From an uncultured Candidatus Entotheonella sp. (lineage in GTDB: Bacteria > Tectomicrobia > Entotheonellia > Entotheonellales > Entotheonellaceae): DNA of 64,000 nucleotides. Position numbers and translations under genes: made by a program. This document shows positions 7,054 to 42,439 of the stretch, piece by piece. Position 1 is the stretch's first letter, and each line of letters starts with the position of its first letter. A model generated the notes under the pieces. It made no database searches, was not told where the DNA came from, and saw nothing but the letters and a program-made list of their open reading frames with translations. The DNA is taken from NCBI GenBank assembly GCA_951828535.1, contig OX639990.1, forward strand, positions 669,300 to 733,299. The letters are read 5' to 3'.

Positions 7054-8535
7054 GAGCCTCTTGCAGAATTACGAAACGACTGGATTTATTGCAGATTGGA
7101 GTAGGATGACTTTGGCTGGGACAGGCCGACCCTCCTGAGTATCATGGTGTCCTCCACAGACCTCATGACGAGGAGAGCGGCCATGCCCCTGCGCGAGACT
7201 CTATCGAACTATTGGTATGCCTTTCAACAAGAACTGTTCCCCAGACTCGAAATGGAGTTTGGCCCCCTGAGCGGGCGCTATGGACTCTTTGTTGCGGTCC
7301 TCGAGTTCGTGCGCCTCGAAATCCTTTTGCCGTCCATGTCCAGCTTGCCAGGCCGGCCACCGCAGGATCGCGCCGCACTGGCGCGCGCCTTCATTGCCAA
7401 GGCGGTCTTCGACATCCCGACGACGCGGGCCCTCATCGAACGTCTGCGGGTTGACCAGACACTTCAGCGCCTGTGCGGCTTCAGCAGCGCCTGCCGACTT
7501 CCGAGCGAGGCCACGTTCTCACGCGGCTTTGCCGAATTCGCCGACAGCGCCCTGGTTAGCCGTCTGCACGAGGCGCTGGTTACGCGGACGATGAAGGGCC
7601 ACTTGGTCGGGCATATCTCGCGCGATGCCACGGCAATCGCGGGCCGTGAAAAGCCGCTGCCGAAGGTGCCTGGCGCACGCCGAACGAAGCGCCAGCGAGG
7701 GCGCCCGCGAAAGGGTGAACAACGGCCCAAGGAACCCACCCGCCTGCAACGTCAGTTAGCCATGACGCTGCCGCAAATGTTGGACGAGTTGCCAAAGCCG
7801 TGCGACGTCGGAGTGCGGACAAACGCCAAGGGCGCGTTTGAAAAGTGGGTCGGCTACAAGCTGCACGTCGACGCCGCCGATGGCGGCGTGCCGGTGAGTT
7901 GTATTTTGACCTCGGCGTCGCTGCATGACTCACAAGCAGCCATCCCATTGGCACGTCTGACGGCTGGGCGGGTTAACAACCTCTACGACCTGATGGACGC
8001 AGCTTACGACGCTGAGGAGATACGGGCCTACAGTCGAAACCTCGGCCACGTGCCGATCATCGACTTCAACCCCCGGGGATCGGGCGGGCGAGGCGAAGCG
8101 ATCAAGCGCGAAGCAACGGCACGCCGCGCTCTTGGCTATGTTTTTCCGGAACAGCGGCGCTACCACGAACGCACGACCGTCGAGCGGGTGTATGCGCGGC
8201 TCAAGGAGGAGTTCGGCGGTCGTCATGTTCGGGTACGGGGGCACGCGAAGGTGCTATGCCACCTCATGTTGGGCATCCTTGCGCTGGCGGTCAGCCAGCT
8301 GATGCACCTGCTGCCACCGCTCTGATGGAGCTTGTTCGCCCGACATCACTGCAACACCGCCCTCATGGAGGGCCGGGGACAACCTTGCCCACAGGTCGTA
8401 GAACCTGCTCCAACTGGACACCGAGGTAACTCTTGCAGCACGTTCCTTAAGCCTTCATGCCTATTGCGGCTCAAGGCGACGCTTCGTGCTTCCGTAGCCG
8501 AGCCTGCAGTTGCTCATGAATTTTGCAAGAGGCTC
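7054..8535 (+). mobile_element. Complete insertion sequence (IS1182-like, 1482 bp)
   Basis: Inverted ends GAGCCTCTTGCAGAATT (7054-7070) and its near-perfect complement (8519-8535, one mismatch) enclose one transposase gene. Each end is directly followed by TATG (7050-7053 and 8536-8539), which looks like a 4-bp target duplication. The element therefore appears intact and was acquired by transposition. The family is judged from the transposase only. Confidence 0.82.
7183..8325 (+). CDS. IS transposase (DDE, DUF772-type N-terminus)
   Basis: A 380-aa transposase filling the IS. The N-terminal part (GRPPQDRAALARAFIAKAV..PTTRALIERLRVD..LRRLCG-like) is the DUF772 domain of IS1182/IS5-group enzymes. 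Catalytic acidic residues are suggested by HISRDATAIAG, YDLMDAAYDAEEI and the C-terminal ERTTVERVYARLKEEFGGR. The ATG at 7183 is preceded by AGGAG at seven bases; ATGs at 7144 and 7165 are in frame but lack a site. The gene is open from end to end, so the element may be active. Confidence 0.85.
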   Translation: MPLRETLSNYWYAFQQELFPRLEMEFGPLSGRYGLFVAVLEFVRLEILLPSMSSLPGRPPQDRAALARAFIAKAVFDIPTTRALIERLRVDQTLQRLCGFSSACRLPSEATFSRGFAEFADSALVSRLHEALVTRTMKGHLVGHISRDATAIAGREKPLPKVPGARRTKRQRGRPRKGEQRPKEPTRLQRQLAMTLPQMLDELPKPCDVGVRTNAKGAFEKWVGYKLHVDAADGGVPVSCILTSASLHDSQAAIPLARLTAGRVNNLYDLMDAAYDAEEIRAYSRNLGHVPIIDFNPRGSGGRGEAIKREATARRALGYVFPEQRRYHERTTVERVYARLKEEFGGRHVRVRGHAKVLCHLMLGILALAVSQLMHLLPPL

Positions 8536-35781: not shown

Positions 35782-36357
35782 CTACAGGCCCCTGAGCACC
35801 GCCAGAAGTTCATCGTTGGGAACGAGTTCCAGAGGCGGCGTGATCTTGTTGTAGCGCACCACGCCTTCCTTGTCGATGATCATGAAAGCCCGCTGATTAC
35901 GCCGGTAAATGACCGGCCCGAAGCCCTCTTGTTCAAGAAGGGCAGGGTCATCGAAAAGGGTGCCATAGGCCTTCGACATGCCGCGAAACATGTCGCTCAA
36001 CAGGGGATAGGTGAGACCGAGTTTTTCGGCCCATGCTTTGTTGGCATCGTTGAAATCGACGCTGATACCCAGTACCTGGGCATTGGCGGCCTCGAACTTG
36101 GGCAAGTCAAGTTGGAAGGCCAGCGCTTCCTGCGTTCAAACGCCGGTGAAGGCGCCCACGTAAAAGAATATGACCACGTGCTTCTTGCCGATAAAGTCGG
36201 ATAGCTTCACCTCATCGGCGGTAGTCGCGGCCAGGGCGAAGTCGGGCGCCTTGTCCCCGACCTGGAGGGCCGAGGCAGAACTAAGAGCGCCGCAGACCAG
36301 CACTGTGGCAAACAGCAGGGCAGCTATGAACCGCCCGTGCCGTTGAATTACCTGCAT
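35782..36357 (-). CDS. Selenocysteine-containing peroxiredoxin (periplasmic)
   Basis: A 191-aa AhpC/TSA-family peroxidase read through an in-frame TGA at 36138-36136 (codon 74). Signal peptide to about residue 30 (SASA), then [12 protein letters not shown]. The active-site segment reads [18 protein letters not shown], where relatives have FxPxxFTxxC-T, so the TGA replaces the peroxidatic Cys exactly. Downstream sequence ([39 protein letters not shown]) is normal peroxiredoxin to the end, with no resolving Cys in the mature protein. AAGGAG precedes the ATG. The gene follows a UxxC thioredoxin-like gene by 21 bases, a plausible reductant. Read without readthrough it would be two useless halves. 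Confidence 0.85.
36088..36121 (-). promoter_or_regulatory. Candidate bacterial SECIS of the peroxiredoxin
   Basis: Fourteen bases after the TGA, the message can fold GGCCT/AGGCC (outer) and AACTTG/CAAGTT (inner, perfect 6 bp) with a 7-base loop ACUUGCC. The position suits a bacterial SECIS. The loop lacks the G in its first two positions that the simple consensus prefers. Confidence 0.5.
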
Positions 36358-36378: not shown

Positions 36379-36948
36379 TTAGCTGCGCGGCTGGGCCGCC
36401 AGATCGGCAAGGTACTGCCGGAATGAGCCGCTGTCGAGGTCGAAAGGTCCGGAGGCACCGGCAACGACCGTGCCCTCACGGCTGATCACGAGCGTATACG
36501 GAACGCTCCGAGCGCCAAGCGCACGGGCTACCGTCATCTTCTGATCGACCAGCGTGGGGAAGGTGTAAGCATGCCTGGCAAGGAAAGACTGCACTGTCGG
36601 CACACCGCCACCGTCAAGGGAGATCGCGACTACGGCAACATCTTCATTCGGGAAGGCTTCGTGTACCCTCTGCACGGAGGGCATCTCGCTGCGGCAGATC
36701 CCTCACCAGGTGGCCCAGAACCGTGCGACCACCACCTTTCCTTGCAAATCGGCGGCACGAACGACGTTGCCATCGGGACCGGGAAGCTCGAAAGCGGGGA
36801 GGGTTACAGTTTCACCCGGAGCCTGCATGCCCTGGGGAAGGGCCGGCCCGTCTGCCGCGTCCGCGTGCATGGGATGCAGCGCCAAAAGGGTTACCGCGAG
36901 CAGGCCGAGCCAAATCCAGGCACGCCCTGCTCGTTTAAGTCCGGACAT
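36379..36948 (-). CDS. Selenocysteine-containing TlpA/ResA-like thioredoxin
   Basis: A 189-aa periplasmic thioredoxin-fold protein read through an in-frame TGA at 36705-36703 (codon 82). AAAGGAGG precedes ATG 36948. An uncleaved or cleaved N-terminal segment (WIWLGLLAVTLLALHPMHADA) exports it. The active site reads VVARFWATW-U-GIC-RSEMPS: the first Cys of the TlpA WCxxC motif is replaced by Sec82 and Cys85 is kept. The cis-Pro (RSVPYT) and the VVAISLDGGG and GTVVAGASGPFD strands complete the fold. It could reduce the neighbouring Sec peroxiredoxin or serve metal-site maturation, for example of the upstream NirK (inference). Confidence 0.87.
36664..36683 (-). promoter_or_regulatory. Candidate bacterial SECIS of the thioredoxin-like gene
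   Basis: Nineteen bases after the TGA, UGCCCUC pairs with GAGGGUA (7 bp, one G-U) around a 6-base loop CGUGCA that has G at position 2. Distance, stem length and loop size all fit a bacterial SECIS. Confidence 0.65.
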
Positions 36949-37076: not shown

Positions 37077-38213
37077 TTACTCGATTGGATGCGGCGCCGC
37101 CACTTGCTCCATCAGGTCATTGTTCCATTGGCCATCCACCGAAATATGGCCCACCGCGCCAAGCAGAACGGCTTCGATCAGGTTGTGATTGACGTAGGCA
37201 TAAATGCCAGGTTGACGGAAGGTGTACAGCGCGGCAGCGGCCTCGCCGCCAAACACGGGCCAGGTCTCCCGATTCGTGTCCGGCGCGTCACTGAATGAGC
37301 CGCCATGCCATACCAGATCACCGTGCCCGCCGATAATGTGAACCCGCGAATCACGATTGGCCTGAGAATGGATAAACAGCACGCTCTCACCTACGGACGC
37401 CTTCATGGCATGGTCGCCGGTGAGCCCGCCGACTCTGCCGTTGAAGGTGATGTGGGTGGGAACAAGCGTCTTCATGGCCTCCAGAGAATCGTTCAAGGCC
37501 GCAGTCGGGTTGCCATAGCGCTTAAAGTTGCCCTCCCCGTCCTTCGGAATGTAGAAATCCTGCTCACCGATATAATAAGCGCCGTCATAACGCACTGGCT
37601 CACCTTCGGCGTCTGTCAGACCGTCCCGCGGCAATACCAAGACAGCCCCGTTCATCCCCGCCACAACGTGATAGGGAATCATCGCGCCACCGGGCGCGCA
37701 GTGGTAAATGAACGTCCCGGTCTTGGTCGCTTTCCAGCGCAATTTGACCTGTTGTCCAGGTCCGACAAGCGTGAGCGCCCCACCCCCCATCGCGCCGGTC
37801 GAGGCGTGGAAATCGATGTTATGGGGCATCGTGTTGGATTTGGGGTTACGGAGCGTCAATTCGACGTAATCGCCCTCGTGGACGACGATGATCGGCCCCG
37901 GATTCGTGCCATTGAAGGTCATGGCCTGGACAAAAACCCCTGGCGCAATTTCCATCTCTTTTTCGACGACATCCAGCGTAACCTCGACAATTTTCGCTCC
38001 CCCCTTGGCAACCTGGTCGTGCTGCGGTAGAAACGGCGGGGCAACGAGTTCCTGCACGACCCGTGGGAGGCCTTCGATCTCTGCCTCTTGACCGACCTCA
38101 AATCCGGGTAAACCGCCCTCTGCAAACGTTGAGGCGGAAACGCCCAACAGGATGGTGACTGCAGCGGCGATTAAGATGCTTGTGGCATGACGCCTCGACG
38201 AATGTTGCTGCAT
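37077..38213 (-). CDS. nirK: Copper nitrite reductase NirK
   Basis: A 378-aa periplasmic two-cupredoxin enzyme reducing nitrite to NO. Type 1 copper ligands His131, Cys172, His182 and Met187 and type 2 ligands His136, His171 and His343 are all visible in [27 protein letters not shown] and VNHNLIEA. Catalytic Asp134 and His292 (VHIIGGH) are also in place with normal spacing. The signal peptide ends near [13 protein letters not shown] precedes the ATG. No FNR/NNR box was found in the 271 bases upstream, which hold no gene. The two selenoprotein genes follow on the same strand. Confidence 0.95.
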
Positions 38214-41692: not shown

Positions 41693-42439
41693 TCAACGCT
41701 CAATCAGCGCGTATTTCTTGTGCGGCGGCAGGGTTTCTTGGGAAATATAGGCCATGTACATGGCGTCCAACATCGTCCACAACACGTCGAGCTTGAACTC
41801 CAAAATGTCCAGGGCGCGCTCCTGTTGCGCGCGGGTCTTGAAATAGTCCAGCGTGACCTGGAGTCCATGCTGCACGTCCCGGCGCGCCTCGGTCAGGCGC
41901 ATGCGGAAATAGTCCAGACCCTCCGGGCCAATCCACGGGTAATGCTTGGGAAACGACTCGATACGCGAAGCGTGCGCGTCCGGGGCGAAAAGCTCCGTTA
42001 GAGACGAGCACACCGCCTCCTGCCAAGGGCGCGAACGGGCAAAATTGCGATAGGCGTCAACCGCGAAGCGCACACCTGGCAGGACGTGCTCCTCACTAAG
42101 AACTTCCTCACGCGTCAAGCCACAGGCAACCCCCAGCCGCAACCACGCTTCGATGCCTCCTGCGTCGCCGTCGGTGCCGTCCTGATCGAGCATGCGCAGA
42201 ATCCACTCGCGCCGCACCTCCCGGTCGGGGCAGTTGGCCATGACCGCGGCGTCTTTCAACGGGATATTCTTTTGATAATAAAACCGGTTGGCCACCCAGC
42301 CCTGCATCTGCGAACGAGTCAGCTTGCCCTCGGTCATCATGACCTGGAAGGGATGGTAGACATGGTACGAGGTTCCCTTCTCTTTCAGCTTCTCGTGAAA
42401 TTCCTCACGACTCCAGGGGGCCAATTCGGAAGCAGGCAT
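41693..42439 (-). CDS. pqqC: PQQ synthase PqqC
   Basis: A 248-aa cofactorless oxidase that performs the last eight-electron oxidation to PQQ. Family blocks: [68 protein letters not shown] and [14 protein letters not shown]. The ATG at 42439 follows AAGGAG by seven bases; the longer open frame lacks a site. Length matches characterised PqqC (about 250 aa). Confidence 0.96.

Follow-up and report, generated by a model that had tools for sequence, protein, structure and literature searches.

Two adjacent genes on the reverse strand of the window (the whole stretch of 64 kb of DNA that was analysed), one coding for a TlpA/ResA-type thioredoxin (TlpA-U, 36379-36948) and the other for a peroxiredoxin predicted to be exported (Prx-U, 35782-36357), each carry an in-frame TGA. 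On the strength of sequence comparisons, we infer with high confidence that both TGAs are codons at which selenocysteine (Sec) is inserted. UxxC proteins of the TlpA type are already known, and the fresh element is the conserved pair of two selenoproteins, for which no published description was found. Well-supported TlpA-type and Prx-type selenoproteins are thereby placed together in a putative operon of relatives of sponge symbionts, and gene callers break both genes into fragments. From the partner gene, a reductant role is suggested for TlpA-U and a peroxidase role for Prx-U.

The TGA of TlpA-U alternates with Cys and is followed by translated sequence

With its TGA read as U, TlpA-U codes for 189 amino acids and contains the motif RFWATWUGICRSEMPSV. 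As a previous sequence-only reading of this DNA had described, the frame from 36948 to 36379 has TGA at the first Cys of WCxxC. This codon, U82 (36703-36705, reverse strand), is the sole in-frame TGA of the gene, and the only Sec or Cys residues of the protein are U82 and C85, arranged as W-U82-G-I-C85. A ribosome-binding site, AAAGGAGG, lies 5' of the ATG, and the N-terminus, which is hydrophobic and has an ADA-like cleavage site, resembles a signal peptide by inspection. The TlpA/ResA-like identity proposed in the same reading is borne out by Pfam matches over the cut-offs to PF00578 (AhpC-TSA, 87.1 bits) and PF08534 (Redoxin, 77.7 bits) and by the solved structures nearest in sequence, which were 3kcm (E 4.6e-25), ResA 1st9 (6e-16) and TlpA 1jfu (6e-12). 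TlpA-U combines the features of the TlpA/ResA-like thioredoxin family, namely the AhpC-TSA/Redoxin domain, WUxxC, the cis-Pro (P150, invariant among the homologues compared) and, as judged by eye, the signal sequence. The curated NCBIfam cut-offs were not reached for ResA (82 versus 170 bits), TlpA (73 versus 230 bits) or NF041054 (77 versus 300 bits, E 1.4e-21), and TlpA-U is therefore filed as a TlpA-type UxxC selenoprotein, with no narrower name.

Among all aligned homologues, codon 82 was Sec in 12 distinct genes, Cys in 66 and never any other residue, which is the alternation between TGA and Cys that had been proposed as a check; 20 of the 66 Cys homologues came from an unbiased search, and the other 46, retrieved with the Cys-containing seed FWATWCGI, are not independent. 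C85 was Cys in every aligned homologue. In the unbiased search, which covered 60 genomes, TGA was kept at codon 82 in five Entotheonellaceae genes from four genomes: TlpA-U itself, a second copy in the same genome (C1:109277, 73% identical), and one gene each in G001 (89%), G003 (58%) and G002 (50%), the protein identity among the five being 51-90%. The gene 89-90% identical to TlpA-U sits on a chromosome of 4.29 Mb from an uncultured Candidatus Entotheonella, in the same genus as the genome of the window. Weaker matches carried Cys, or TGA in G035 and G036, and a DNA pattern for WATWUxxC added TGA genes in G052, G229, G089, G101 and G102; these seven further TGA-carrying TlpA-type genes come from seven genomes of families other than Entotheonellaceae. 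Pattern matches in G001 (C1:256758, 367745, 883139 and 3157603) and one in G032 were discarded, as they encode no TlpA. TlpA-U shows two of the marks by which bacterial selenoproteins are recognised, a TGA aligned with a conserved Cys and its occurrence in at least two different sequences.

One TGA splitting an otherwise ordinary frame would also be left by faulty sequencing, or by a nonsense mutation if the gene were decaying. We regard this explanation as negligible; it is refuted by the conservation of TGA at the identical codon in the five Entotheonellaceae genes of four genomes and in seven other genomes. Moreover, constraint persists 3' of the TGA, where pairwise dN/dS between the close TlpA-U genes was about 0.07-0.34, comparable with the upstream part (0.085 for the window's own TlpA-U versus that of G001), indicating that translation continues in frame beyond the TGA. 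Hardly more probable is the reading of UGA as some other amino acid, either by a Trp or Gly code or by programmed readthrough with a near-cognate tRNA, for which the frame being open through the TGA would speak. Termination at TGA of 13 of the 32 long ORFs of the window, and of the TlpA-U gene of G001, argues that the code is not globally changed, codon 82 alternates with Cys only, and the Sec machinery of the genome is complete.

The genome encodes the selenocysteine machinery

The genome to which the window belongs contains selA (606 bits) and selB (363 bits), adjacent to each other at C1:3374799-3378091, selD (319 bits, C1:3250621) and a tRNA-Sec with anticodon TCA (73.9 bits, C1:193160). 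A lack of selB or selC, named in the sequence-only reading as grounds for abandoning Sec, is thus not the case. Besides this genome, selA was found in 9 of 10 genomes with the Sec form, in G003 as a piece at the end of a contig. It was not found in G035 (86% complete), although the TGA form is present there, and this counts against the Sec reading. The selD gene (C1:3250621-3251538, L128) was located within an open frame of 775 codons; since the selD model has less than half this length, the gene may be fused to another domain.

A conserved hairpin follows the TGA of TlpA-U

Downstream of U82, the hairpin UGCCCUC-CGUGCA-GAGGGUA (36664-36683, reverse strand) begins 19 bases after the TGA, with a stem of 7 bp and a 6-nt loop, CGUGCA, that begins 26 nt after it. 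The published model of the bacterial SECIS (bSECIS) comprises a loop of 3-9 nt, a stem of 4-16 bp, a distance of 16-37 nt from the UGA, a G at loop position 1 or 2 and an MFE of -7.5 kcal/mol or lower (PMC13188914). With a loop of 6 nt, a stem of 7 bp, a G at position 2, a distance of 26 nt and -11.4 kcal/mol, TlpA-U agrees with it throughout, so that the hairpin noticed earlier is real as sequence and was rightly credited with a good bacterial SECIS geometry. The folding energy of the 76-nt stretch of TlpA-U was ordinary (z -0.57), and comparison of the hairpin with synonymous-codon shuffles gave a P of about 0.1. It is conservation, and not folding energy, that raises this hairpin above chance: it is contained in a 31-nt stretch (36659-36689, reverse strand) that is identical in the five TlpA-U genes, synonymous sites included, and a single codon was used at 8 of 10 invariant degenerate residues in this stretch versus 6 of 44 outside it (Fisher P 1e-4).

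The covariance analysis suggested beforehand had a divided outcome, as the hairpin of TlpA-U is invariant and without covariation, while that of distant relatives shows compensatory changes. Six of the seven distant Sec-TlpA genes have a different hairpin, whose loop lies 17 nt after the TGA and starts with G[U/G]. Its positions were 87.8% paired, and double (compensatory) changes were observed at 4 of 7 pairs. Covariation amounted to 0.463 versus 0.183 in shuffles (0/500), a value somewhat favoured by the structure having been read from the same sequences as were scored, and it fell to 0.075-0.224 when the partner was slid by 1-3 columns. By inspection, the Entotheonella TlpA-U genes break the register of the distant hairpin by C-C mismatches, which indicates that the Entotheonella hairpin is shifted 9 nt downstream with respect to the other Sec-TlpA genes.

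The neighbouring gene very probably codes for a second selenoprotein

Prx-U, absent from the sequence-only reading, was found here as the gene next to TlpA-U, starting 21 nt after it. The protein has 191 amino acids with the motif GAFTGVU74TQE, in which U74, an in-frame TGA (36136-36138, reverse strand) read as Sec, occupies the peroxidatic position. The TGA is kept at the same codon in G001, G002, G003 and the genome of the window, and Cys stands at this codon in other homologues, e.g. the paralogue at C1:2826183 of the same genome. A SECIS hairpin of 12 pairs with a small bulge (36088-36121, reverse strand) was tested against synonymous shuffles in the four genomes, with P values of 0.0055, 0.0055, 0/2000 and 0.0055. 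Every site of the hairpin that varies among the four genomes is at an unpaired position, and among third codon positions all four unpaired ones but none of the eight paired ones vary (P 0.002). Measured against the bSECIS model, the distance is 28 nt and the energy -13.4, and the G is in place only if the loop is taken to include the closing G-C pair. Rfam at gathering thresholds gave no match in the 64-kb window, which puts the hairpins of both TlpA-U and Prx-U outside known RNA families.

In the four Prx-U orthologues there is no Cys after residue 22, that is, outside the signal peptide, from which it follows that Prx-U has no resolving Cys. Together with TGVU74TQE in a TxxU context, this is the sequence signature of a one-Sec peroxiredoxin, and Prx-U is predicted to be an exported enzyme of this class with a peroxidase role. 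A scan of the 64-kb window for other TGA-split frames yielded no convincing case beyond TlpA-U and Prx-U. A pqqC-like frame on the reverse strand (42523-41693) ends with TGA at 41693 and stays open into a pqqD-like gene (start 41665), both names being read from the translations; this TGA resembles a normal stop separating two genes in the same frame and not a Sec codon.

Comparison with known selenoproteins

The Sargasso Sea selenoproteome, published in 2005, already included a UxxC thiol-disulfide isomerase-like selenoprotein (PMC1088965), and a UxxC TlpA-type selenoprotein appears as cd02966 in Table 1 of a 2026 review, beside UxxC Prx-like and Redoxin proteins (PMC13188914). The description of Sec in an exported TlpA-type protein as uncommon, made in the sequence-only reading, had to be corrected in view of these reports. 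TlpA-U shares with the cd02966 protein the TlpA-type thioredoxin fold, Sec in place of the first Cys of CxxC and, downstream, a bacterial SECIS, but it belongs to a named lineage, the Entotheonellaceae, and is paired with a Sec peroxiredoxin; its SECIS loop lies 26 nt from the UGA versus 17 nt in the distant relatives found here. The likeness to the Prx-like thiol:disulfide oxidoreductase (PF00578, UxxC) and the Redoxin protein (PF08534, UxxC) of the review consists in the shared UxxC motif and in both Pfam families matching over the cut-off (PMC13188914). NCBIfam NF041054 (ResA-like WAxxUGC motif-containing) is likewise ResA-like with Sec after WAxx, but its model of 354 positions describes a longer protein, with UGC instead of UGxC. 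ResA and TlpA (1st9, 1jfu) and the thioredoxin family protein 3kcm are, by sequence, of the same fold family as TlpA-U, but carry Cys and not Sec.

TxxU peroxiredoxins are experimentally known, and Prx-U has the TxxU motif of the Sec peroxiredoxin (PF00578), with sequence matches to Rv2238c (1xvw, E 1.2e-17) and 2ywn (E 5e-25). Unlike the known Sec peroxiredoxin and Rv2238c, it is predicted to be exported and its mature part is free of any Cys, and with 58 versus 270 bits it stayed below the cut-off of the NCBIfam model PrxU. The operons named in the review combine Prx with SELENOW-like or Prx-like with AhpD-like selenoproteins, and the TlpA-U/Prx-U pair is not among them (PMC13188914). Literature searches on Entotheonella selenoproteins and on ResA-like selenoproteins found nothing.

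A possible selenium relay and the role of TlpA-U

Four genomes have kept the pair, with Prx-U always directly after TlpA-U and a gap of 18-28 nt. The coupling is not obligatory, since the second TlpA-U copy of the window's genome stands without a neighbouring Prx-U. Nor was any Prx-U homologue present within about 1.5 kb of the distant Sec-TlpA genes. In the mechanism that we propose, SelB with Sec-tRNA would read the TGA of TlpA-U on the hairpin just downstream, giving an exported UxxC thiol-disulfide reductase that would form, with Prx-U, a two-selenoprotein operon. In Prx-U, Sec74 would be oxidised by peroxide to a selenenic acid, and as the protein lacks a resolving Cys, the thiol or selenol that reduces it must come from outside. 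TlpA-U is a natural candidate for this reductant because it is encoded directly upstream and is apparently addressed to the same compartment: Sec82 would attack the selenenic acid, returning it to the selenol, C85 would resolve, and the resulting selenenylsulfide could be recharged through a DsbD/CcdA-type membrane protein. One DsbD_TM protein is encoded in the genome. Export, co-transcription and the electron path of the pair are all predictions from the gene sequences, and we give about an even chance to TlpA-U being the reductant of Prx-U. Of the two functions offered for the Sec centre of TlpA-U in the sequence-only reading, very strong reductant and fast peroxidase-like centre, the partner gene points to the first. 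The two proteins are probably a small selenium-based repair pair outside the inner membrane of a relative of sponge symbionts. The fuller proposal, a dedicated exported Se-Se relay in Entotheonellaceae in which a UxxC TlpA-type protein recycles a sole-Sec peroxiredoxin encoded in the same operon and the SECIS of TlpA-U has shifted by 9 nt, is put forward tentatively, at slightly less than even chances. Why selenium is kept in exported enzymes could be tested cleanly on such a UxxC protein paired with a lone-Sec peroxiredoxin.

TlpA-U may instead be a selenoprotein for other substrates, with the co-location of Prx-U reflecting co-regulation under oxidative stress. Relatives of TlpA/ResA proteins serve cytochrome c maturation or copper-centre assembly, and a role of this kind, which we consider a real possibility though one that we would not bet on, agrees with TlpA/ResA proteins being the closest solved structures, with the second TlpA-U copy standing without Prx-U, and with the position of nirK, a copper nitrite reductase gene (37077-38213, reverse strand; TIGR02376, 473.8 bits), directly upstream of TlpA-U. 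However, in G001 no nirK stands between TlpA-U and the ABC transporter, and the gene is absent in G002 and G003, whereas Prx-U is a neighbour in all three, and Prx-U without a resolving Cys needs an outside reductant. A functional link of nirK to TlpA-U was dropped, since they are neighbours in this genome only, apart from a 36-aa tail at the second copy.

Related loci in the genome

TGA was found at the catalytic position in 5 of the 9 AhpC-TSA-family matches of the genome. Besides the two genes of the window, these have the motifs TGGU, WUPYC and WUGNC at C1:1573531, C1:636070 and C1:109424 (loci L132, L134 and L137), respectively. The genome therefore appears rich in thiol-redox selenoproteins, and a large part of its thiol-redox system would be wrongly annotated by standard procedures.

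The nirK tail mentioned above is a 36-aa piece of the C-terminus (L091:9026-9133), 67% identical, immediately 5' of the second TlpA-U copy; its presence beside a copy that lacks Prx-U suggests partial duplication of a nirK-tlpA-U segment. Two DDE_Tnp_1 transposases of 393 aa, at 7144-8325 in the window and at L091:11483-12664, are 100% identical and represent a recent mobile element. The former lies about 28 kb from TlpA-U and the latter about 1.6 kb from the second copy.
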